Positions 7,012-18,129 of a DNA stretch of 64,000 nt are shown here, one piece after another (position 1 is the stretch's first letter; every line of letters begins with the position of its first letter). A program made the translations under genes and the position numbers. The stretch is taken from NCBI RefSeq assembly GCF_000613345.1, contig NZ_BAIS01000001.1, forward strand, positions 62,001 to 126,000, read 5' to 3'. The stretch comes from Prevotella disiens JCM 6334 = ATCC 29426. GTDB taxonomy: Bacteria; Bacteroidota; Bacteroidia; Bacteroidales; Bacteroidaceae. The notes beneath the pieces were generated by a model. That model was given only the letters and a program-made list of their open reading frames with translations, was not told the DNA's origin and did no database searches.

Positions 7012-8271
7012 ATGCAAAAAAATATTTGGCAAATGCTAAAGTGGTTGAAAGATAAAACAACAAAAAAAGATAAAAATAATTTGTCATCATCTGATAATAA
7101 CAATGATGACAAATTAGAAAATAACGATAATATAGAAGATTCTCAAAACGAAACTGTTTGTGAAAATAAACAAGAAAAAGAGAAAGCAGAAGAATATACT
7201 GTGAGAAAGAAAAAGCACATAGAATTTGATTTATTTGGATTCTTTTTGGTTCTAAAGAAACGCTGGTGGGTAGTTGGAATCTTTACCTTAGTGTTTGGAA
7301 CTTTTGGTGTTTGGGTTGCTTTTCAAATACCTCGCATTTATAAGGCAAACATTTTATTAGCCCCTGAAACGGCTAATAATAGTATGCTTTCAAACGTTTC
7401 TTCATTAGCAGCAATGGTTGGTCTTTATAATGATGCTAACCCAACGGGCGATGCAATTTATCCAGAAATTTACCCAGAGCTAATGAGTTCAAACGACTTT
7501 TTAGTTAATCTTTTTGACATAAAAGTTACAACACTCGACAAAAAGACCCAAACAACGTATTATGACTATCTTACCAACCATCAAGAAGAAACATGGTGGG
7601 GCAAAAAAATGAAAGTCTTTTCTGATTATATCAAAAAGAATTTCATGCAAAAAAATCAAATTACTCGTGGCGATTCTGTTCATGTAAACCCATTTGAACT
7701 GACAGAGAAACAGTCTTCAATAGTCAAATCAATGAGGGAAGACATTTTATGTTCAGTTGATAAAAAAACAAATATTATCAATATTGAAATTACAGCGCAA
7801 GACCCACTCGTAGCTGCAACAATGGCTGACTCTGTGAAAAATAAATTGCAAAAATCTATTACAAAGTATAAAACATCGAAAGCGAGAAACGATTTAAAAT
7901 ACATGGAGGGACTTTTTGCAAGTGCAAAAGCTGATTACGAGAAAGCAAGAAGAAAATATGCAGCGTATTGCGATGCAAACCAAGAGGCTATATTAGAATC
8001 TATCCGTTCTGAACAAGAAAATTTAGAAAACGATATGCAGTTGAAGTATAACATTTACACGCAACTCGTACAACAATTGCAAATGGCAAGAGCAAAACTT
8101 CAAGAAAAAGTACCAGCATTTACAGTTGTTCAATCGGCTTCTGTTCCTATAAAACATAGCAATACACCAAAAATTTATATTTTAGCGGTCTTTTTATTCA
8201 TCGGTTGGATTATTTGCTCTACACTCTTAATTATAAAATATAGAAAAGAGATTCTTATTATAAGAAGTTAA
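7012..8271 (+). CDS. Wzz-like chain-length/co-polymerase protein, first of a tandem pair
   Basis: Inner-membrane polysaccharide co-polymerase thought to set glycan chain length. It has 419 residues. The first 70 or so are cytoplasmic, low in complexity and rich in K, N, D and E, which the family does not require. A membrane helix lies near 84-106 (RWWVVGIFTLVFGTFGVW), then a periplasmic alpha/beta region, a long helical/coiled-coil stretch (about 285-365), a Pro-containing PIKHSNTPK motif and a second membrane helix near 390-410. No tyrosine-kinase domain is fused or found nearby. It is paralogous to the next gene, which begins one base after its stop. From here to 17 kb the coding sequence is visibly more AT-rich than the genes before it. 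Confidence 0.85.
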   Translation: MQKNIWQMLKWLKDKTTKKDKNNLSSSDNNNDDKLENNDNIEDSQNETVCENKQEKEKAEEYTVRKKKHIEFDLFGFFLVLKKRWWVVGIFTLVFGTFGVWVAFQIPRIYKANILLAPETANNSMLSNVSSLAAMVGLYNDANPTGDAIYPEIYPELMSSNDFLVNLFDIKVTTLDKKTQTTYYDYLTNHQEETWWGKKMKVFSDYIKKNFMQKNQITRGDSVHVNPFELTEKQSSIVKSMREDILCSVDKKTNIINIEITAQDPLVAATMADSVKNKLQKSITKYKTSKARNDLKYMEGLFASAKADYEKARRKYAAYCDANQEAILESIRSEQENLENDMQLKYNIYTQLVQQLQMARAKLQEKVPAFTVVQSASVPIKHSNTPKIYILAVFLFIGWIICSTLLIIKYRKEILIIRS

Positions 8272-8272
8272 A

Positions 8273-9235
8273 ATGACAAAGAAGAAAGGAGAAGTTACTG
8301 TAAAAGAGATATGTGCCAAAAATAAATATAAATTTTTGGTATCAATCTTCATAGCTGTTATAGGAGCTTTTCTTTTCACTAATTCTATTCCAACACTCTA
8401 TGATGCGCAAAAAAAGATTTCTATTGATGCCTCTGAAGATAAGGTTTTCAAAAGAGTAGATGCGCTTTCAATGGTTACGCAAAAGTTAGGACTCAAAGAA
8501 GGAAACGTAACAACAGAACCTATTATTTATAGAAAAATTTTAGAATCACCTTCTTTCCTTAATAGCCTTGCGGATATTACTATTTTAAAAAAAGGAGAAA
8601 CATATTCAACACCATGGAGCGAATATCTACAAAAAGATTTTGTTCAACCATGGTGGAGCAAATATACTGGAAAGAAAAATATAAAAGAATTATTAAGAGA
8701 AAATGTAAAATGCGAAGTTAATTTGCATAATGGCATTATTACTTTGCAAACATCTGCACAAGAACCTTTTATCGCTTATCAACTTCTTGACTCTGTAGAA
8801 CAACGATTGCAACAACATCTTACAAAATACTCCTTCGACAAGGCAAAAATTGATGTTGATAATAGAAAACAAGAATTGAATAACTCAAAAGAGCTATATG
8901 AAAAGGCAATGAGTAAATTGAATAAATTTCTTGATGCGAATAAAGATGTTGCCTTAGGTTCATTTAAAATAGAAGGAAACGCATTACAAAAAGAAGCTGA
9001 TAAAGCATTGGCTAAATACAATCAAGCCATTCAGCAATATCAAATGGCAAAAATGCGATTACAACGTACTAAACCATATTTCATAACATTGGTTTCAAGC
9101 GAAATACCAAAAACTCCATCGCACCCAAAACTGCTGATTAATATACTGATATGGGTATTTTATGCCGTATTAGGAACTTTTTGGTGGGTAATGATAGGAT
9201 ATAAAATGAAAATAAGAAAGGAAAGAGTACCATGA
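8273..9235 (+). CDS. Wzz-like protein, second of the tandem pair
   Basis: A 320-residue relative of the preceding protein without its long cytoplasmic N-terminus. The order is: short cytoplasmic segment, helix near 20-40 (FLVSIFIAVIGAFLFTNSIP), periplasmic domain, coiled coil (about 185-270), and PKTPSHPK before a second helix near 288-310 (INILIWVFYAVLGTFWWVM). Shared patterns with its neighbour include a WW pair after the first domain, NIINIEITAQDP versus NGIITLQTSAQEP, and QxAKxRLQ before the last helix. The 1-nt gap implies translational coupling. The two may form a mixed oligomer, or may set two chain lengths. The start is the only ATG that gives a complete first helix. Confidence 0.82.
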   Translation: MTKKKGEVTVKEICAKNKYKFLVSIFIAVIGAFLFTNSIPTLYDAQKKISIDASEDKVFKRVDALSMVTQKLGLKEGNVTTEPIIYRKILESPSFLNSLADITILKKGETYSTPWSEYLQKDFVQPWWSKYTGKKNIKELLRENVKCEVNLHNGIITLQTSAQEPFIAYQLLDSVEQRLQQHLTKYSFDKAKIDVDNRKQELNNSKELYEKAMSKLNKFLDANKDVALGSFKIEGNALQKEADKALAKYNQAIQQYQMAKMRLQRTKPYFITLVSSEIPKTPSHPKLLINILIWVFYAVLGTFWWVMIGYKMKIRKERVP

Positions 9236-10554
9236 ATTCTGAATTAAGGACATCACGTTTAAAAAAGAATATTCTCTTTTCATTTTTAATTAAAGGTTGG
9301 GCTGGCATCATACAATTGTTATTAGTCCCAATCACTTTATTTTGCTTGGGTAATTACGAAAATGGAATATGGATGACTATCAGTTCTATTCTTATTTGGA
9401 TAGATTCGTTAGACATTGGATTGGGCAATGGATTGAGAAATACTTTATCTGCTCAAATTGCTAACAATGAAATAGAAAAAGCAAGGGAAAGTGTTTCCTC
9501 TACTTTTTTTATGTTGGCTTTAATAATAATTCCAATTTGCATTCTATTAATACTTGCAATCAATTTCTTAGATGTTTATACATTGCTGAATATTGAGGAA
9601 AGCAAAGTTCCAAATCTTATTTCGGTACTCAGTTTATCAATAGCAATTGTAAGTGCAACTTTCATCTTTAAATTTATAGGGAATGTTTATTTGGCATTGC
9701 AGCTCCCAGCAGTAAATAATCTTTTAGTTGTAAGTGGACAAACTTTAACTTTGATTGGAATTTATATGCTGAATATTTTGAATATACACTCGCTAATGTT
9801 GGTGGCTTTATGTTATACGGCAGCACCGTTGATTGTCTTTCTCATAGCCTACCCTATTACTTTTGGACATTATTATCCAAATTTAAAACCCAATATTCAA
9901 TACTTTAATAAATTTGCAATAGCGAATTTATTTAATATTGGCATGAAGTTTTTTATTTTACAAGTAGCAGGAGTTATCCTGTTTGCATCATCAAATGCCT
10001 TAATTTCGTATTTTTTCACTCCAGAAAAAGTAACTCTTTATGGCATAGCATACAGATATTTTTCAATTACAATGCTCTTATTCACTGTTATAGCTGCACC
10101 TTTTTGGAGTGCAACAACAGACGCTTATACACGTAAAGATTTTGATTGGATAAAAAAATCGATGCGTAAACTACACTTTTTGCTCATCAGTTTATTCATC
10201 ATACTTGCCTTTATGATTATTTTCTCTGACCCAATTTATCATCTTTGGGTTGGAAAGAGTATAAATATCTCATTAGAATTATCTGCTTCAATGGCACTCT
10301 ATATGTTTATTATCATTTGCAGCCTTTGTTATTCTTACATTTTAAATGGAATAGGTGCTTTGAAAATTCAGCTCATTTTTACCATCGGAGCAGCTTTGGC
10401 ATATTTTCCAATTGCATACGGACTTTCAAAATTACTTGGAGTATGCGGAATTGTTCTTGCATTATCGATAGTAAATTTACCTGGCGCAATTGCAAACAGA
10501 GTGCAATATAGTAAAATTATGAACGGAACAGCTAAAGGAATTTGGAGAAAATAA
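9232..10554 (+). CDS. wzx: Wzx-type polysaccharide flippase
   Basis: Predicted to flip undecaprenyl-linked repeat units across the inner membrane. The 440 residues are almost entirely hydrophobic with about 12-14 membrane helices, and contain the MATE/Wzx-fold signature NxIWMTISSILIWIDSLDIGLGNGLRN near residue 45. An ATGA overlap couples it to the second Wzz-like gene, and the polymerase gene begins one base after its stop. The substrate cannot be deduced. A second, only distantly similar flippase lies at 55763-57259, so the organism has at least two glycan systems in this window. Confidence 0.85.
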   Translation: MNSELRTSRLKKNILFSFLIKGWAGIIQLLLVPITLFCLGNYENGIWMTISSILIWIDSLDIGLGNGLRNTLSAQIANNEIEKARESVSSTFFMLALIIIPICILLILAINFLDVYTLLNIEESKVPNLISVLSLSIAIVSATFIFKFIGNVYLALQLPAVNNLLVVSGQTLTLIGIYMLNILNIHSLMLVALCYTAAPLIVFLIAYPITFGHYYPNLKPNIQYFNKFAIANLFNIGMKFFILQVAGVILFASSNALISYFFTPEKVTLYGIAYRYFSITMLLFTVIAAPFWSATTDAYTRKDFDWIKKSMRKLHFLLISLFIILAFMIIFSDPIYHLWVGKSINISLELSASMALYMFIIICSLCYSYILNGIGALKIQLIFTIGAALAYFPIAYGLSKLLGVCGIVLALSIVNLPGAIANRVQYSKIMNGTAKGIWRK

Positions 10555-10555
10555 A

Positions 10556-11761
10556 ATGGTAGAACTCACAATTATTTTTCTTGGATTACTCTTGTTGGCT
10601 TTTGGAGTATTGAAAATTGGCGATATTTTTTCACCATGGTTCATAACAACAGGTATTTGGTTCTTCATTGTCGTGTTCTTCCAAATTTCATCAGGACTAC
10701 TTTATCCTTTACAAGACCGCTTTTACATTTGCTTATCACTTTGGGTTCCTATCATGTGTTTTACGGGAATCATGACTTATTATGCTTTACCGAGTGTCAA
10801 ATCCGAAATAGAACCAATAAGGAATGAACTTGAAATACATAAAACAATTTTCTTGATATTCTTTATAATCTCTATGATTTGTACGCCTTTGTACATTTAT
10901 AAAATATATAAAGTGGTCATCATGTTCGGAACGCAAGACCTGTTATTTAATTTAAGAATTTTAGCAGGAGCAGAAGATGAAGACCCTTTAGCTAAGCTAC
11001 TTAAATACATTAATGCAGTAAATCAAGCTCTTTATATTATAGCTATTTGGCGTTATCCTAAAATTAGCAAAACACAATTAACGCTTATAATTATAGCCAA
11101 CTTTATGTGTGCCATTGCTATCATGGAGAAAGGTGCTTTATTCTTCATGCTTTTCACAACGCTTTTTACTCTTTATCAAAAGGAAAAAATAAAGATGCGT
11201 TCTATTTTACTATGGGGAGTCGTTATAATATTTGTTTTTTATGGCATAAATATCCTTCGTCGTTCTGCAGATGCAAAGGTATCTGATAATTCTACATTAT
11301 TAGATTTTATTGCCATGTATATTCTTTCACCACCCGTGGCTTTTGAGCAAGTACAAGAAAAATTAACACCTCAATTTGGTTCACGCACATTTGCTTTCTT
11401 TTATGCAGTTGCTTCCAAACTTGGCTTTGGAAAGTTTGTGATAGAACCTAAATTACAAGAATTTGTATATGTGCCTATCCAAACAAACGTTTACACTGTA
11501 TTTCAACCTTTTTTCCAAGATTTTGGTTACAAAGGAGTTGCTTTCTTTGCCTCAATTTATGGAACTTTCACAGGTTGGTTGTACAAACAAGCAAAAAATG
11601 GAGGAGCCATTTCAAAATGTATGTACACATATATTGTCGAAATTCTAATACTGCAGTTTTTTCAAGAAAACCTCATATTAAGTCTTTCGCTACTCTTCCA
11701 ATACTTGATAGTCTTTACATTTATCTTACAAAAGAAGATAAAATTTGTAGTAAGAGCGTAA
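10556..11761 (+). CDS. wzy: Wzy-like oligosaccharide repeat-unit polymerase
   Basis: A 401-residue polytopic protein with about 10-11 hydrophobic helices, placed between the flippase and the glycosyltransferases, as expected for the polymerase that joins repeat units on the periplasmic face. Wzy proteins share little sequence, so the call rests on topology, size and position. A large loop near residues 225-300 contains charged and aromatic residues (NILRRSADAKVSD, SPPVAFEQVQEKL), as typical of the catalytic periplasmic loop. No other polymerase candidate is seen in the locus. Probably co-transcribed with its neighbours; the next gene starts 22 nt after its stop. Confidence 0.7.
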   Translation: MVELTIIFLGLLLLAFGVLKIGDIFSPWFITTGIWFFIVVFFQISSGLLYPLQDRFYICLSLWVPIMCFTGIMTYYALPSVKSEIEPIRNELEIHKTIFLIFFIISMICTPLYIYKIYKVVIMFGTQDLLFNLRILAGAEDEDPLAKLLKYINAVNQALYIIAIWRYPKISKTQLTLIIIANFMCAIAIMEKGALFFMLFTTLFTLYQKEKIKMRSILLWGVVIIFVFYGINILRRSADAKVSDNSTLLDFIAMYILSPPVAFEQVQEKLTPQFGSRTFAFFYAVASKLGFGKFVIEPKLQEFVYVPIQTNVYTVFQPFFQDFGYKGVAFFASIYGTFTGWLYKQAKNGGAISKCMYTYIVEILILQFFQENLILSLSLLFQYLIVFTFILQKKIKFVVRA

Positions 11762-11783
11762 TCTTCAAAAGGATATTTACAAG

Positions 11784-12638
11784 ATGAATATATTTGTCAT
11801 AATCGTACTTTACAACCCAACTGAAGAAGATTTGCAACATACCAAACATGTAGCAGAAATCGAAGCAGGATTTATTATAGATAATTCCGAAAAAGCATCA
11901 CTTCCTAACAAAATAGGCAAGATGAATTATATCTGTAATAAAAAGAATTTAGGCATTGCGGAGGCACAAAATATTGCATTACAAAAGATTATCTCAGAAG
12001 ATTCCGAATCGTATGTTGTGTTTTTCGACCAAGATTCAAGGTTTATTCCAACCTATGCAAAAGATATTGTTGCCGAATACATCAAAATAAAAAAAGAAAT
12101 TCCCAATTTAGGTTTATTGGGACCAACCGTATTGAATAAAGAAACAGGAAAAGAATATAAATCAGCATTCCATAATGATGCTGAAAATATAAATAATTTT
12201 ATTCCTCGCCGTGATGTTATTTCTTCAGGAAGTTGTGTTGATATAGATACATTAAAAAAGGTAGGGTTAAACGATTCAGCACTCTTCATTGATTTTGTAG
12301 ACTTTGAGTGGTGCTGGCGTGCCCAAAAATTAGGCTTTATTTGTGGCATAACCGCTAATATTTGCATTGAACATAAAGTTGGTTCTAATGAAATTTCAAT
12401 TGGAAATCACCATGTTATCATATCTTCTCCCATTAGAGAATATTATTCTTACCGAAATTATCAATGGCTGATAAGACGAAATTATGTGCCGCTTCAATGG
12501 AAAATAGCGCAAGGAGTTAAGCAATTCTTACGTTTTCTCTATTTCCCATTTGTTGTAAAAAATGGTAGAAAACATTGTAAATACATGATATTGGGCTTTA
12601 AAGATGGTATTTTAAGCCGACAAAAAATTGCACAATGA
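11784..12638 (+). CDS. GT2 glycosyltransferase, rhamnosyltransferase-like
   Basis: Cytoplasmic GT-A fold enzyme of family 2 expected to add one sugar to the lipid-linked repeat. Within 284 residues are VIIVLYNPTEED at the N-terminus, a metal-binding acidic motif VVFFDQDSRF near residue 78, and a C-terminal FVDFEWCWRAQKLGF followed by YRNYQWLIRRNY. The opening LYNPxxxD and the DQD motif are typical of dTDP-rhamnosyl transferases (RfbF/WbbL-like), but the donor is inferred. It is clearly paralogous to the next gene, with which it overlaps by ATGA. Confidence 0.82.
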   Translation: MNIFVIIVLYNPTEEDLQHTKHVAEIEAGFIIDNSEKASLPNKIGKMNYICNKKNLGIAEAQNIALQKIISEDSESYVVFFDQDSRFIPTYAKDIVAEYIKIKKEIPNLGLLGPTVLNKETGKEYKSAFHNDAENINNFIPRRDVISSGSCVDIDTLKKVGLNDSALFIDFVDFEWCWRAQKLGFICGITANICIEHKVGSNEISIGNHHVIISSPIREYYSYRNYQWLIRRNYVPLQWKIAQGVKQFLRFLYFPFVVKNGRKHCKYMILGFKDGILSRQKIAQ

Positions 12639-13504
12639 AAATAGGAGCATTAGTAATACTTTATAATCCGACAGAAGAAAACATTACCAATATTGTCAAT
12701 TGTTTAGAAAAACAAGTTGATAAAATATGTATGGTTGATAATTCTGACAAAGATAATTCTCATTTATTAAGTATAGATGAGAAGATTATTTATTTTCCAT
12801 TATGCCAAAATGTAGGCATTGCAGGAGCCCAAAATAAAGGAATAAAATATTTCATCGAACACCATTTCGATTATATTATTTCATGCGACCAAGACACAAC
12901 CATAGGACAAGATGTTGTTAAAAGATTATTATCAACCACTTTACAACTTAAAAGCCAAAATATCAATGTTGGAGCAGTTGCCCCTATTGGTATTGACCAT
13001 AACACCCAAAAGCCATTAAGTTATTCAACACCAAAAATAAAAGATATAACCGTTGGCAATTTAAGCCTCATGGAAGTTTATCACACGATGAACTCTATGT
13101 CGCTTATTAGTGTTGATTTATTTAAAAAAATAGGACTAATGGACGAAACTTTATTCATAGATGGCGTTGATTGCGAATGGTGCTGGAGAGCCAAACACCT
13201 TTTGAGCGCGCGTTTCTTCTACGACTATAACATTAAGATGAACCACACTTTGGGCATATCTACCAAAAAAATAGGAGGACGAGAAATCCACATAACACCA
13301 TCATTTAGAATGTACTATCAATATCGAAATTTTATATGGCTTGCGCAAAGGAACTACACGCCCAAAAGGTGGATAATAAGAAATGGTATTAAATACATTT
13401 TTAAATTTTTTTATTATACAATAAAAAGTACTAACCGCCGTTCTTATATTAAAAACATTCTAAAAGGAATACGTGATGGAATATCAAGTCAAACAAAAAA
13501 TTAA
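12635..13504 (+). CDS. GT2 glycosyltransferase, paralogue of the preceding gene
   Basis: A 289-residue family 2 enzyme with the same plan as its neighbour: ALVILYNPTEEN, acidic DQDTTIG near residue 88, FIDGVDCEWCWRAKHL and YRNFIWLAQRNYTP. The two C-termini end similarly (GFKDGILSRQ versus GIRDGISSQT), supporting a tandem duplication with later divergence. An ATGA overlap with the upstream stop indicates translational coupling. It probably adds a second sugar of similar type, perhaps rhamnose. The next gene starts inside its last ten codons. Confidence 0.82.
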   Translation: MKIGALVILYNPTEENITNIVNCLEKQVDKICMVDNSDKDNSHLLSIDEKIIYFPLCQNVGIAGAQNKGIKYFIEHHFDYIISCDQDTTIGQDVVKRLLSTTLQLKSQNINVGAVAPIGIDHNTQKPLSYSTPKIKDITVGNLSLMEVYHTMNSMSLISVDLFKKIGLMDETLFIDGVDCEWCWRAKHLLSARFFYDYNIKMNHTLGISTKKIGGREIHITPSFRMYYQYRNFIWLAQRNYTPKRWIIRNGIKYIFKFFYYTIKSTNRRSYIKNILKGIRDGISSQTKN

Positions 13505-14321
13505 ATTTTCTGTTTTAATGTCTGTCTATGCCAAGGAAAATCCAGAATGGTTGCGCCTTAGCTTAGATAGTGTATTTCATCAAACCCTTCCTCCTAATGA
13601 GGTTGTTCTTATAGAAGATGGACCTATTACGAAAGCACTTTCAGATGTTATAGAAGAGTTTAAATCCAAATACCATACACTTAAAGTTTTTCCACAAAAA
13701 GAAAACAAAGGTCTTGGGACAGCTCTTAATATTGGTTTGCAACATTGCTCCTACGAATTAGTAGCTCGTATGGACACAGACGACATTTGTCGTCCCAATA
13801 GATTTGAAAAACAAATAGAACTTTTTGAAAAAGATGCCGACTTAGATATTTGCAGTTCGCTAATAGATGAATTTGAAGGTAACATAAAAAATATTCGCTC
13901 TCAACGTCTATTACCTGAACATCATGAAGATATTATAAAATATGCCCACCAACGTTGTCCTGTAAACCACCCCACTGTAGTTTACAAAAAAAGCAAAGTT
14001 CTTGCAGCAGACGGCTATCAAGGATTTCCCGAAGACTATATCTTATGGATAAACATGATTATGAATGGTTGTAAATTTTATAACTTGCAAGAAAGTTTGC
14101 TATGGTTTCGGTTTTCTTACGATGTTTATCGAAGAAGAGGCGGCTGGAAATATGCAAAAAACGATATAAAAGCACAATGGAATTTCTATAAAATGGGGTT
14201 CACTTCATTTTCAGAATTTCTCACAAATGCTATTATAAGAGGAATTGTCCGCTTAGTTCCCAATTCACTTCGAGTTTTTACTTACAAATACCTTTTAAGA
14301 AAAAAATATGACAGAACTTAG
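13476..14321 (+). CDS. GT2 glycosyltransferase (AmsE/WcaA-like)
   Basis: Family 2 enzyme of about 281 residues with FSVLMSVYAKENPEWLRLSLDSV, VVLIEDGP, a GLGTALNIGL turn and ARMDTDDICRPNRFEKQ, the DxD metal site of the AmsE/WcaA type. After the catalytic domain come HPTVVYKKSKV and a Trp-rich acceptor region. I use ATG at 13476 although a GTG precedes it by one codon. It overlaps the preceding gene by 29 nt and the next (licD) by 14 nt, so the locus is tightly packed. Donor and linkage are unknown. Confidence 0.82.
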   Translation: MEYQVKQKIKFSVLMSVYAKENPEWLRLSLDSVFHQTLPPNEVVLIEDGPITKALSDVIEEFKSKYHTLKVFPQKENKGLGTALNIGLQHCSYELVARMDTDDICRPNRFEKQIELFEKDADLDICSSLIDEFEGNIKNIRSQRLLPEHHEDIIKYAHQRCPVNHPTVVYKKSKVLAADGYQGFPEDYILWINMIMNGCKFYNLQESLLWFRFSYDVYRRRGGWKYAKNDIKAQWNFYKMGFTSFSEFLTNAIIRGIVRLVPNSLRVFTYKYLLRKKYDRT

Positions 14322-15105
14322 ACATTTACAGTTGGTCATTTTGCATATAATGAAAGATATTGATGCGCTTTGTGCCAAAAACAATATCGAATATAGCCTA
14401 AACGGAGGCAGTGCTATCGGTGCTATACGTCATAAAGGTTTCATTCCATGGGACGACGATTTGGATATACAAATGACACCTACCAATTATAAGAAATTTA
14501 TCAAAGTGTGTAGAGAGCAACTTGATAAAGAAAAATATTATTTTGCAGAAGGTACAGTGGATTGGCCACTCGATTTTTGCAAAATAAAACTACGTGGCAC
14601 AAAGATGATTGAGGCCGAAGGTTATGGTGGGAAAGAAAATGAATTAGGAATATTTGTTGATATTTTTCGTGTCGATGGTGCTGCGCCTACTAAAATAGGA
14701 AGATATTGGCAATATTTTTGTGCAAAATATAGAACAGCTTATCTTATTAATCAACGTGGATATAATTCTGCTTCTCTCCTAAAAAAGATAGTAATGTTCC
14801 TTTCTTTTCCACAAAAATTCAAGCCTATCCGCAATTTTTTCAAACATGAAAAAGAAAAATATGATGGTGAAGAAACAGGTTATTATGGACTTCTATCTGA
14901 ATATACAAAAGTAAACCATTGCTTTTTTCCAAAACATATTTTTACGAATGGCACTATAAAAGTAGATTTTGAAGATACTAAATTGTCTATTTTAAAAGAA
15001 TATGATGCTTATTTAAAGCAAGTTTTTGGCAATTATATGCAACTCCCTCCTTTAGAAAAACAAGTTTGTGAACATCACAACGGAGTAGATTTTGGTCAGT
15101 ATTAA
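14308..15105 (+). CDS. licD: LicD-family phosphotransferase
   Basis: Member of the LicD nucleotidyltransferase-fold family, which transfers phosphocholine-type groups from a CDP-activated donor to a sugar. It has 265 residues. The signature NGGSAIGAIRHKGFIPWDDD lies near residues 32-51, holding the catalytic acidic cluster, followed by LDIQM. Further family features are KIKLRGTKMI, GIFVDIFRVDGAA and a C-terminal LPPLEKQV. Because LicD needs an activated donor, the LicC-like nucleotidyltransferase encoded 25 nt downstream is its natural partner. The modified residue is probably part of the repeat unit built by the surrounding enzymes. Family assignment is firm; the group transferred is inferred. 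Confidence 0.9.
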   Translation: MTELRHLQLVILHIMKDIDALCAKNNIEYSLNGGSAIGAIRHKGFIPWDDDLDIQMTPTNYKKFIKVCREQLDKEKYYFAEGTVDWPLDFCKIKLRGTKMIEAEGYGGKENELGIFVDIFRVDGAAPTKIGRYWQYFCAKYRTAYLINQRGYNSASLLKKIVMFLSFPQKFKPIRNFFKHEKEKYDGEETGYYGLLSEYTKVNHCFFPKHIFTNGTIKVDFEDTKLSILKEYDAYLKQVFGNYMQLPPLEKQVCEHHNGVDFGQY

Positions 15106-15130: not shown

Positions 15131-16945
15131 ATGCAAGCAATAATTTTAGCAGCAGGAATGGGTCGCCGTCTTGGCGAAATAACAAAAGAAAATACAAAAT
15201 GTATGCTTTCTATTAATGGTAAACGCTTAATAGATAGAACATTGGAACAATTAGCAAATAATGGCATACAAAAAGTTATCATTGTTGTTGGCTATAGCGC
15301 AAAAAATCTTATTGAACATATTGGAAACCGATATGAAAAGTTTTTTGATATAGAATTTATTAACAATCCGATATTTGATAAAACAAACAACATCTATTCG
15401 CTTGCACTTGCAAAAGAGAAGATGATTGAAGACGATACCATTCTTTTTGAATCTGATTTAATATACGAAGAAAGTGTCTTGCAAATGGCTATTGAAAGCC
15501 CCTACCCTAACCTCGCATTGGTTTCTAAATGGGAATCATGGATGGACGGAACAGTTGTACAAATTGATGAACAATATAATATTATTAATTTCATCAATAA
15601 AAAGGCTTTCAGCTACAGAGATGCAGAAACTTATTATAAAACGGTCAATATCTACAAATTCAGCAAAGAATTTTCTAAACAAAAATATATTCCTTTTTTA
15701 AATGCTTATTGTGAAGCACAAGGAAATAATGAATATTACGAACAAGTATTGCGTGTAATAGCATTTCTCAACTCTCAAGATGTAAAGGCATTACCTATTG
15801 GTAATAAGAAATGGTACGAAATTGATGATATTCAAGATAAGGATATTGCAGAAACAATTTTTGCCAACAATGATGACGAACAACTTGCAAAAATGAATAA
15901 ACGCTATGGTGGTTATTGGCGTTTTCCACAATTATTAGATTACTGTTACCTGGTAAATCCTTACTTTCCACCTAAACGAATGCTGGAAGAAATGCGTGCC
16001 AACTTTGACACACTCCTCACTGAATATCCTTCAGGAATGGGTGTAAACTCCTTGCTTGCAGGAAAATATTTTGGTATCAAACAAGAATATATAGTAGTAG
16101 GAAATGGTGCTGCCGAACTTATAAAAAGTCTTTTGGAAAGAAATATAGGCAAAATAGGTATTGTACTTCCTACTTTTGAGGAATATCCTAATCGATATTC
16201 TAAAGAAGACATCATTGCTTTTGTCCCTGACAACAAGGATTGTGCTTATAATTCATCGGATTTAATAAAGTTTTATGATAATAAACCTATAAAAACTTTG
16301 CTTCTTATCAATCCTGACAACCCTTCGGGCAATTTTATTCCAAAGAAAGAAGTTTTAGAATTAGCAGAATGGACAAAAAATAAAGGTATCAAATTTATTG
16401 TTGATGAATCTTTTGTTGATTTCTCCGATGACTTTCGCAACAATTCACTTCTTGATAACGCTACACTCAGCACATATAAGCATCTTTTTGTTATGAAAAG
16501 TATTTCAAAATCATATGGTGTTCCAGGTTTGCGCTTAGGCATTTTGGCAAGTTCTGATACCCAAACCATTGATTACATAAAGAAAGATGTAAGTATATGG
16601 AATATCAATTCATTTGCTGAATTTTATATGCAAATATTTAACAAATACAGCAGTGTCTATGATGCAGCCTGCGAATGTTTCATTGCAGAACGCACTCGCT
16701 TTGCAAAACGATTGGAAGAAATAAATTGGCTTCGAGTAATTCCTTCGCAAGCCAACTATTTCCTTTGTGAAGTTAAAACGCCTCATACATCAGCCGAAAT
16801 AACAAAACGACTTTTAAAAGAGCATTCTATACTTATCAAAGATTGTAATAGCAAGCAATCGTTAGAAAACAAAAATTTTATACGAATAGCAATTAGAAAC
16901 GAAATAGATAACGAACAGCTTATTAAAGCTTTTAAACAGCTGTAA
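15131..16945 (+). CDS. Fusion: LicC-like nucleotidyltransferase + PLP-dependent CobD/HisC-fold enzyme
   Basis: A 604-residue two-domain cytoplasmic enzyme. Residues 1-245 are a sugar-nucleotidyltransferase fold like LicC: AIILAAGMGRRLGEITKENT, the Lys-containing KCMLSINGKRLIDRTLEQL, and NNPIFDKTNNIYSLALA, which parallels the choline-phosphate cytidylyltransferase motif. Residues 260-604 are a class I/II PLP enzyme: GNGAAELIKSLL near 320, LLINPDNPSGNFIP near 393, FIVDESFVDF near 425, the Schiff-base lysine in SISKSYGVPGLRLG near 458, and a terminal Arg in NFIRIAIRNE. This second half resembles histidinol-phosphate aminotransferases and the threonine-/serine-phosphate decarboxylases. With licD next door, a plausible task is making a phospho-amino-alcohol and activating it as its CDP form. 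An aminotransferase role in a CMP-2-aminoethylphosphonate pathway (PntC type) is an alternative. Confidence 0.85.
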   Translation: MQAIILAAGMGRRLGEITKENTKCMLSINGKRLIDRTLEQLANNGIQKVIIVVGYSAKNLIEHIGNRYEKFFDIEFINNPIFDKTNNIYSLALAKEKMIEDDTILFESDLIYEESVLQMAIESPYPNLALVSKWESWMDGTVVQIDEQYNIINFINKKAFSYRDAETYYKTVNIYKFSKEFSKQKYIPFLNAYCEAQGNNEYYEQVLRVIAFLNSQDVKALPIGNKKWYEIDDIQDKDIAETIFANNDDEQLAKMNKRYGGYWRFPQLLDYCYLVNPYFPPKRMLEEMRANFDTLLTEYPSGMGVNSLLAGKYFGIKQEYIVVGNGAAELIKSLLERNIGKIGIVLPTFEEYPNRYSKEDIIAFVPDNKDCAYNSSDLIKFYDNKPIKTLLLINPDNPSGNFIPKKEVLELAEWTKNKGIKFIVDESFVDFSDDFRNNSLLDNATLSTYKHLFVMKSISKSYGVPGLRLGILASSDTQTIDYIKKDVSIWNINSFAEFYMQIFNKYSSVYDAACECFIAERTRFAKRLEEINWLRVIPSQANYFLCEVKTPHTSAEITKRLLKEHSILIKDCNSKQSLENKNFIRIAIRNEIDNEQLIKAFKQL

Positions 16946-17019: not shown

Positions 17020-18129
17020 ATGAAAATTTACATACTAATTAGTCTTTTAGCCTTTACTTTGAGCATCACATGCGGCTTTATCTTCATTCCCCGCATTCTG
17101 AACTTTTGCAAAAATAGGAACCTATACGATATACCTAATCAACGAAAAGTTCATAAAAATGCCATTCCACGATTGGGTGGCGTATCATTTTTGCCGAGTA
17201 TGCTGATTGCTACGATTATAGCTTTATTGGCTTGGTCGTATACCAACGATGGAAAGAAAATAGAAATTAGCCCTTGGACTATCTATTTTGCTTTGGGATT
17301 GTTTATCATTTACGCCATAGGACTGATAGATGATGTTTTTGGAGTAAGTGCGAAAAAGAAGTTTTTAGCACAGATTTTTGTTTCATCGCTCCCTCCTATC
17401 GCTTGGCTTTATATCAATAATTTTTATGGCTTTCTGGGCATTGAGCAAGTTTCATTTTGGGTTGGTGCGCCGCTAACGGTGTTTATTTTGGTTTTCATCA
17501 TGAACGCTATCAATCTTATTGATGGCATTGATGGCTTATCGGCAGGACTTTCGCTCATTGCCCTCGTCGGTTTCTTCTATTGTTTTTTTAGTGAAAGCAT
17601 TTGGATTTATAGCATTTTAATTGCTGGACTCATTGGTGTGCTTATTCCATTCCTTTATTATAATGTATTTGGAGATGCAGAAAAAGGTCAAAAAATATTC
17701 ATGGGCGATTCTGGTTCTTTGACTTTAGGTTATATATTGGGTATTCTTTTGGTAAAATTTAGCATGGATACTCCTTTGGTGAAAGATTACAAAAGAGTAT
17801 CAATATTCTTAGCTATGACGCTGATGATGGTACCAGTATTCGATGTTTGCAGAGTGGTCATCGTTAGAAAGTTGCATGGACATAATATTTTTCAACCTGA
17901 TAAGAATCATATTCACCATAAATTTATGCGTGCAGGCTTAACCCAACACCAATCGTTAGCTGCAATTTTAGGCATGGCAATTACCTTTATCGTATTGAAT
18001 GTATCGCTATACTCAATTTTTGATACAACCATTTTAATTTTGGGAGATATTGTGATTTACACACTTTTTCATCTTTTACTATTGAATCGATGGATTAGGA
18101 AAAACAAACAATTGCCTTTTATGGAATAA
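17020..18129 (+). CDS. WecA/MraY-family undecaprenyl-phosphate HexNAc-1-phosphate transferase
   Basis: Integral membrane enzyme that starts glycan synthesis by moving a HexNAc-1-phosphate from UDP-HexNAc to undecaprenyl phosphate. It has 369 residues and about 10-11 membrane helices. Family motifs are complete: IPRLGGVSF near 46, GLIDDVFG near 102 (DD pair), NAINLIDGIDGLSAG near 163, FMGDSGSLTLGY near 227, and the cytoplasmic His motif KNHIHHKF near 297. It is separated from the gene cluster by 74 nt and a possible promoter of its own. It is a second initiating enzyme in addition to the PHPT at 3690, and may serve another glycan such as an LPS O-chain or the locus at 55-60 kb. Confidence 0.9.
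   Translation: MKIYILISLLAFTLSITCGFIFIPRILNFCKNRNLYDIPNQRKVHKNAIPRLGGVSFLPSMLIATIIALLAWSYTNDGKKIEISPWTIYFALGLFIIYAIGLIDDVFGVSAKKKFLAQIFVSSLPPIAWLYINNFYGFLGIEQVSFWVGAPLTVFILVFIMNAINLIDGIDGLSAGLSLIALVGFFYCFFSESIWIYSILIAGLIGVLIPFLYYNVFGDAEKGQKIFMGDSGSLTLGYILGILLVKFSMDTPLVKDYKRVSIFLAMTLMMVPVFDVCRVVIVRKLHGHNIFQPDKNHIHHKFMRAGLTQHQSLAAILGMAITFIVLNVSLYSIFDTTILILGDIVIYTLFHLLLLNRWIRKNKQLPFME

Follow-up and report, generated by a model that had tools for sequence, protein, structure and literature searches.

The window, i.e., the whole 64,000-nucleotide stretch of DNA that was analysed, encodes a single protein in which a cytidylyltransferase (CT) domain is joined to a PLP domain, and this CT–PLP fusion is a real family that was read at 87 loci. 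The link of the family to the activation of an amine as its CDP derivative is strong. On the reading to which we lean, ethanolamine phosphate would most likely arise in the PLP domain by decarboxylation of O-phospho-L-serine, which is formed as an intermediate during serine synthesis, and the CT domain would use CTP to convert ethanolamine phosphate to CDP-ethanolamine. The adjoining LicD-family protein would then transfer phosphoethanolamine to the Wzx/Wzy-type surface polysaccharide of the locus, with no need for choline, ethanolamine or a lipid precursor. In most near relatives, an adjoining or fused reductase of the octopine-dehydrogenase (ODH) or OCD type would probably first couple the free amine to an alpha-keto acid, so that the group transferred would be an N-(carboxyalkyl)aminoethyl phosphate ("phospho-opine"). 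The identities of the domains, the conserved residues, the linkage of the genes and their fusions were observed; from these we infer each of the reactions, the substrate phosphoserine and the order of the steps.

The CT–PLP fusion and its polysaccharide locus

The fusion gene lies downstream of a block of polysaccharide genes assigned by Pfam and NCBIfam. The features of the locus are as follows.

7012–14321, + strand, polysaccharide genes as a block
7012–8271, + strand, Wzz-type protein
8273–9235, + strand, unassigned protein
9232–10554, + strand, Wzx-type flippase
10556–11761, + strand, Wzy-type polymerase
11784–14321, + strand, three GT2-like glycosyltransferases
14308–15105, + strand, LicD-family protein (PF04991), presumed user of the CDP-activated product
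15131–16945, + strand, bifunctional CT–PLP fusion protein, 604 aa, ATG start (ORF list, Pfam/NCBIfam, CT–PLP ORF in 87 loci read)
17020–18129, + strand, WecA/MraY-type sugar-phosphate transferase (PF00953, 108.6 bits, cut-off 27)

The original prediction described a fused CT and PLP protein tied to LicD, and both parts of this description were borne out. The protein is a single ORF in which the two Pfam domains scored above their cut-offs (PF00483, NTP_transferase, residues 3–157, 51.5 bits vs. 21.2; PF00155, Aminotran_1_2, residues 311–600, 107.6 bits vs. 19.7). The Schiff-base motif quoted at that time, SISKSYGVPGLRLG, was found in the ORF, with K460 as the expected Schiff-base lysine. The 3' end of licD lies 25 bp upstream of the fusion gene, and the LicD protein passed the Pfam threshold (PF04991, 136.5 bits vs. 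22.6) over the complete profile (1–227 of 227). The gap between the fusion gene and the WecA/MraY-type gene downstream is 74 bp. The second and third glycosyltransferases scored above the PF00535 cut-off. The first scored 20.4, below the cut-off of 23.3, and was assigned from TIGR01556, for which its score of 159.4 was likewise below the cut-off (200.55).

The breadth of the family was evaluated in two sets of loci. Full-length or near-full-length CT–PLP loci numbered 35 in 34 of the 149 genomes searched, with the window's genome counted, and 16 relatives aligned with the window in alignment A1 were 51–67% identical to its protein. When a collection of species genomes was scanned with an alignment headed by SMUL_1544 of Sulfurospirillum multivorans, at least 525 relatives were confirmed, the best 80 of which were kept as named loci. 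A CT–PLP ORF was present in 52 of these 80, and the two sets (35 and 52) together form the 87 fused loci read. Holders of the 52, among the matches listed, included Bacteroidales, Clostridia, Treponema, a Campylobacterales MAG, an endosymbiont, a Marmoricola MAG and others. The fusion is thus no assembly accident, given its recurrence in both sets. At locus L033, the CT and PLP halves are separate adjoining genes. No description of a CT–PLP fusion was found in the literature searched, which lay mostly outside subscription journals.

The activated amine and the chemistry of the PLP domain

The two domains and the residues discussed below are encoded at the following positions.

15131–15874, + strand, CT domain of LicC/PntC type, about residues 1–248 (sequence and fold comparison)
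15449–15451, + strand, codon of E107, aligned with E104 of Tde-PntC and D105 of LicC (profile alignment)
15740–15742, + strand, codon of E204, aligned with E196 of Tde-PntC and D192 of LicC (profile alignment)
15905–16942, + strand, PLP domain of fold type I, CobD/HisC branch, about residues 259–604 (sequence and fold comparison)
16508–16510, + strand, codon of K460, the expected Schiff-base lysine (Lys in 89 of 89 rows)
16853–16855, + strand, codon of K575, also Lys in SMUL_1544, Tyr in CobD and Phe in 3ftb
16883–16885, + strand, codon of R585, aligned with R337 of CobD (Arg in 88 of 89 rows, one gap)

Residue conservation was evaluated in an alignment of 89 rows of fused proteins, with L151 trimmed to its CT–PLP part. 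The CT half was closest in sequence to LicC (1jyk, E = 7.5e-13) and then to the fused PntC-AEPT of Treponema denticola (6pd1, 1.5e-12). With profile A3, the values were 3.1e-23 for LicC and 4.2e-21 for PntC-AEPT. Its fold matched that of LicC (1jyl, Z = 27.3, rmsd 2.0 over 225 residues). The earlier assignment of the domain to the LicC type thus stands, with the refinement that the two amine-contact residues are of the PntC type, as E107 and E204 are Glu in 89 of 89 rows; the numbering offset of LicC in this alignment was inferred. In the portion of the PntC study available, E104 and E196 of the T. denticola enzyme lie near the primary amine of AEP, with D105 and D192 as their LicC counterparts (PMC6697681). 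The same portion indicates that substrate choice is governed mainly by size rather than charge and that another PntC retains the aromatic residues of LicC (PMC6697681). Because of these two points, the glutamates are a pointer to a small primary amine and not a proof of one. Hence, the CT half likely activates a small primary amine, and its residues fit ethanolamine phosphate, serinol phosphate and AEP alike.

It is hardly credible that the CT half is a phosphocholine cytidylyltransferase joined to a PLP domain of unrelated function. By sequence, the CT half is closest to LicC and a LicD gene adjoins the fusion, in keeping with the cytidylyltransferase and LicD logic of the phosphocholine pathway. 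However, the amine-contact positions carry Glu as in Tde-PntC and not the Asp of LicC, the two domains occur as a fusion in 87 loci, and no choline kinase match was found in the window's genome, which also agrees with the earlier claim that no choline precursor is needed. The choline reading was rejected on these residues and the missing kinase match. The predicted pathway further differs from that of LicC/LicD in that the amine would be made in place.

The PLP half was nearest in sequence to the decarboxylase SMUL_1544. In a search of solved structures, SMUL_1544 (6oux) was the best match (E = 2.8e-40; 2.4e-71 with a profile), the annotated transaminase 3ftb ranked second and CobD (1lc5) gave 8.7e-29. 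An enzyme assay of SMUL_1544 on phosphoserine has reportedly been carried out. Its structure entry is entitled "SMUL_1544, a decarboxylase from Sulfurospirillum multivorans", and the available part of one study names the protein as a possible source of the ethanolamine phosphate in the norpseudo-B12 of that organism (PMC4585668). SMUL_1544 and the window protein have in common the Lys at the K575 position (88 of 89 rows, one gap) and the DESF and NPY motifs. SMUL_1544 differs in that it is 29% identical and stands alone with no CT domain, and its gene (L191) lies among apparent cobamide genes, named by eye. The threonine-phosphate decarboxylase CobD (1lc5/1lc7/1lc8) shares the fold and the core PLP residues; it is 27% identical and has Tyr at the K575 position. 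R585 aligns with CobD R337, to which we ascribe a substrate-anion role, and the position of CobD R323 is occupied by Lys in 64, Arg in 18 and Ser in 6 fused proteins. The YGG start of the PLP domain resembles the HGG start of CobD.

The fold was explored with a structure model built with 17 sequences (mean pLDDT 80.2; below 50 at residues 263–278, 460–466 and 491–493). PntC-AEPT ranked first over both halves (Z = 28.6), with an rmsd of 20.2 since the two domains do not superpose jointly, followed by CobD 1lc7 (27.4), LicC (27.3) and 6oux (26.3). Foldseek ranked 6oux ahead of CobD. This fold is common to decarboxylases and transaminases. Decarboxylation by the PLP half, and with it the formation of ethanolamine phosphate, is our best guess.

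Decarboxylation of O-phosphothreonine, with CDP-aminopropanol as the product, or a service of the protein in cobamide synthesis is improbable. TIGR01140 (CobD) was the top NCBIfam match of the fusion, and CobD 1lc7 lay slightly above 6oux by Z. However, the score of 172.8 is far below the CobD cut-off of 290.55, which no protein of the window's genome reached, the fusion itself being the best match there. The cobamide reading was rejected on this score and on the position of the gene in a polysaccharide locus.

A tree of the PLP domain was built by a quick method, with long branches flagged, from 50 chosen rows, including 23 of the 87 fused loci as well as the homologues L192 and L193; L151 was trimmed and the empty row L184 was excluded. 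The CobD and HisC side comprised one CobD, 3ftb and four HisC-like rows and was thinly sampled, because the rows were gathered with a query led by SMUL_1544. The four HisC-like rows were named by eye and taken from a SMUL_1544 sequence search of 248 genomes from the order to which L134 belongs, sampled evenly from a larger group; among the matches listed, this search gave four at 100% identity, three fused proteins and then a tail at 22–33%. A branch of 44 rows (SH-aLRT 100) united the fused, SMUL_1544-like, L036-like and L033 rows, and CobD, 3ftb and the HisC-like rows stood apart. Within this branch, the support was 97 for the fused clade and 80 for a group of SMUL_1544-like and L036-like rows. 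The SMUL_1544-like clade itself (8 rows, SH-aLRT 100) held no fused rows; the fused proteins fell outside it.

Relatives outside the fused clade were found in other settings. At L036 (4939–8744), a stand-alone PLP relative lies beside a GlnII-like glutamine synthetase (404.1 bits, cut-off 500), a peptidase C26 protein and a protein resembling, by eye, a HAD phosphatase. The gene order was the same in L088, and the locus perhaps encodes a route to a gamma-glutamylated amine. SMUL_1544-like PLP proteins also occur in apparent polysaccharide loci (L076:6878–8565 and L087:6875–8606), each adjoined by a small protein resembling, by eye, a HAD phosphatase.

The homologues L192 and L193 (Campylobacterales) lie inside the fused clade. 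Their PLP halves are 42–46% identical to that of the window and equal it at 25 of 27 positions compared, positions 394 and 589 being different. In both, a phosphonate operon surrounds the CT–PLP fusion (L192:4452–12911, L193:762–9209) and encodes a PEP mutase with a CTP_transf-like N-terminus, a TPP decarboxylase, a radical SAM/SPASM protein, two APS-kinase-like proteins (one with a GNAT domain), a formyltransferase-like protein and an inositol-phosphatase-like protein. No second transaminase was found among the seven neighbours scanned (Pfam on L193). Transamination to AEP is hence the natural reading for these operons and is expected of the L192/L193 fusions. The clade would then hold both chemistries, or the whole clade would transaminate, e.g., from DHAP to serinol phosphate. 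As an observation in its own right, the operon is reminiscent of the 3'-phosphorylated CDP donor of the Campylobacter capsule, as the available part of one study describes it (PMC11800397). At another locus (L122:6200–11751), LicD precedes the fusion, and behind the fusion come a separate CT-like gene and a stretch that resembles PEP mutase and is 48% identical to that of L193, so that both routes lie side by side.

These homologues bear on two alternatives. The first, which we consider unlikely, is that the PLP domain is a transaminase that converts DHAP or another aldehyde or ketone phosphate to serinol phosphate or a similar amine, which would be activated as CDP-serinol and transferred by LicD. 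The fold is the same as that of HisC, and the nearly identical active sites of L192 and L193 imply that transamination is possible in the clade. The CT residues indicate a small primary amine and nothing narrower. In the accessible part of a Campylobacter jejuni study, the capsule-locus PLP enzymes Cj1436 and Cj1437 give ethanolamine phosphate or serinol phosphate, with Cj1437 making (S)-serinol phosphate from DHAP (PMC11800397). The two are likened here by that description, and they differ from the fusion in being separate genes whose products enter amides (PMC11800397). Against transamination stand the position of the decarboxylase SMUL_1544 as the nearest solved relative by sequence and the lysine at K575 common to both.

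The second alternative, that the PLP domain is an AEP transaminase and the CT domain makes CMP-AEP, is a poor prospect for the window. PntC-AEPT (Tde1415; 6pd1/6pd2) resembles the fusion in that a LicC-like CT domain precedes a PLP enzyme, the making and the activation of a small phosphorus-bearing amine both fall to one polypeptide, and the two amine-contact glutamates are the same. It was also the top structural match over both halves, and L192 and L193 lie in phosphonate operons. However, its transaminase is a class V enzyme, a PLP family different from the class I/II CobD/HisC branch (PF00155) of the window protein, and the sequence match to 6pd1 covers residues 2–179 of the fusion only. 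Earlier, no PEP mutase had been seen in the window; this was extended to the whole assembly (94% complete), which gave no match to TIGR02320 at E ≤ 0.001. Among relatives, PEP mutase was independent of the fusion (above cut-off in 2 of 34 fused genomes vs. 8 of 115 others, p = 1), and in the two fused genomes the mutase was on a different contig from the fusion. The phosphonate reading was therefore rejected for the window's genome and stands for L192 and L193. The pairing of a PEP mutase with the fusion, once named as a sign against the ethanolamine route, was not found in the window's assembly and is present at these homologues. Of the original claim that one polypeptide turns phosphoserine into CDP-ethanolamine, the choice of a small amine by the CT residues and the nearness of SMUL_1544 speak in favour, and L192 and L193 count against the decarboxylation step.

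Phosphotransferases and imine reductases beside the fusion

Neighbours were counted by a profile search of the flanks read at the 87 fused loci, with Pfam run on examples; some contigs end nearby. CDP-alcohol phosphotransferases of three unrelated families flank the fusion in 58 of the 87 loci (LicD in 45, CDP-OH_P_transf in 7 and Glyphos_transf in 7). The LicD neighbours, where matched, were just 27–36% identical to the LicD of the window. Moreover, imine reductases of two unrelated families occurred in 49 of the 87 loci (ODH type, PF02317, in 42; OCD type, PF02423, in 9; both in 2). A reductase was found beside the fusion in 30 of 35 loci of related genomes vs. 19 of the 52 named loci from the best 80 of at least 525 relatives. 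Both a phosphotransferase and a reductase were present in 36 of the 87 loci, and neither in 16.

ODH was present in 26 of the 35 related-genome loci and lay directly downstream on the same strand in 24 of these. By genome, it was found in 28 of 34 with the fusion vs. 7 of 115 without (Fisher 4e-18, kinship not corrected). OCD was above its cut-off in 13 of the 149 genomes, 7 of which have the fusion; in the window's genus this held for six of six, with G063 barely above the cut-off. Furthermore, gene fusions join CT–PLP, ODH and LicD into one chain: a Muribaculaceae MAG (L151) encodes a CT–PLP–ODH triple fusion of 946 aa, separated from LicD by 25 bp, and L064 encodes an ODH–LicD fusion of 590 aa right behind CT–PLP. 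An opine-type imine reductase thus belongs to the module in most near relatives, a component absent from the original prediction. The fusion follows the logic of PntC-AEPT with a different PLP domain, to which most near relatives add this step; none of the literature searched placed an opine-type step beside CT–PLP.

The simplest reading of the reductase is that it joins the free amine reductively to a keto acid ahead of the transfer. As background, a Proteus O-antigen reportedly carries N-(carboxyethyl)ethanolamine phosphate, and tauropine dehydrogenase is a further case; the literature search for this O-antigen found nothing. H212, R324 and D329 of scallop octopine dehydrogenase (family of 3c7a) were conserved in 40 of 40 ODH partners checked, which were sequences of 280–420 aa at fused loci, both fusion proteins and one truncated sequence being left out. 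The position of T143 was Arg in all 40, and the substrate of the partners need not equal that of the scallop enzyme because other positions differ. In the available portion of the enzyme's description, which treats H212 and R324, H212 coordinates the carboxylate of arginine (PMC2924402). The predicted ethanolamine derivative has no such carboxylate, which counts against the reductase reading.

A wider reading, to which we give slightly less than even odds, places the family at the centre of a CDP-activated "phospho-opine" pathway not described so far and consisting of the fusion, N-alkylation by ODH or OCD and a transferase, with the window as its short form. N-alkylation would take place on the amine of CDP-ethanolamine or ethanolamine phosphate, and a LicD, CDP-OH or Glyphos transferase would place the group on surface glycans or lipids.

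A separate association was observed at L110 (2132–6180), where the fusion is accompanied by a Glyphos_transf-like protein and by a protein of 911 aa that has a 60KD_IMP (YidC-like) domain and matches a sulfatase model below its cut-off. Clustering places this pair in L139, L141, L144, L145 and L147 as well.

The short form in the window's genome and its implications

ODH or OCD was found anywhere in 31 of the 34 fused genomes, the exceptions being the window's genome, G026 and G021. The window's assembly (94% complete) gave no match to PF02317 or PF02423. G026 (99% complete) had no reductase and the same LicD–fusion order, and G021 (50% complete) had no reductase. LicD with no reductase in the flanks read was also seen in the named set from the best 80 of at least 525 relatives, e.g., at L107, L116, L122 and L150. 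With neither reductase matched in the window's genome, the plain amine is probably used there, and the window is probably a short form of the module. A serC-like gene of this genome (G000:C152:10668–11728) lies in two overlapping frames, neither piece of which scored above the cut-off, perhaps owing to a frameshift or an assembly error. The chain from phosphoserine through ethanolamine phosphate and CDP-ethanolamine to LicD would thus call for none of the parts that were sought in this genome and not found. The genome also has a second LicD-family gene (G000:C184, L073:7749–8549), and no relatives of CT, PLP, ODH or OCD were found near it by blastx in the 16 kb read.

The way in which a host perceives its bacteria can be influenced by charged groups, phosphoethanolamine among them. 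If the proposed route is true, many anaerobes would derive these groups from their central metabolism and would not have to scavenge choline or ethanolamine; among the matches listed, the holders of the family include several gut, rumen or mouth anaerobes by their record titles. The linked opine-type reductases predict a charged surface substituent that is as yet undescribed. Moreover, the two-domain enzyme lets the outcomes of decarboxylase and transaminase chemistry in the CobD/HisC fold be compared across relatives, with the main clade and the phosphonate-operon members (L192 and L193) as the comparison pair for the two chemistries.
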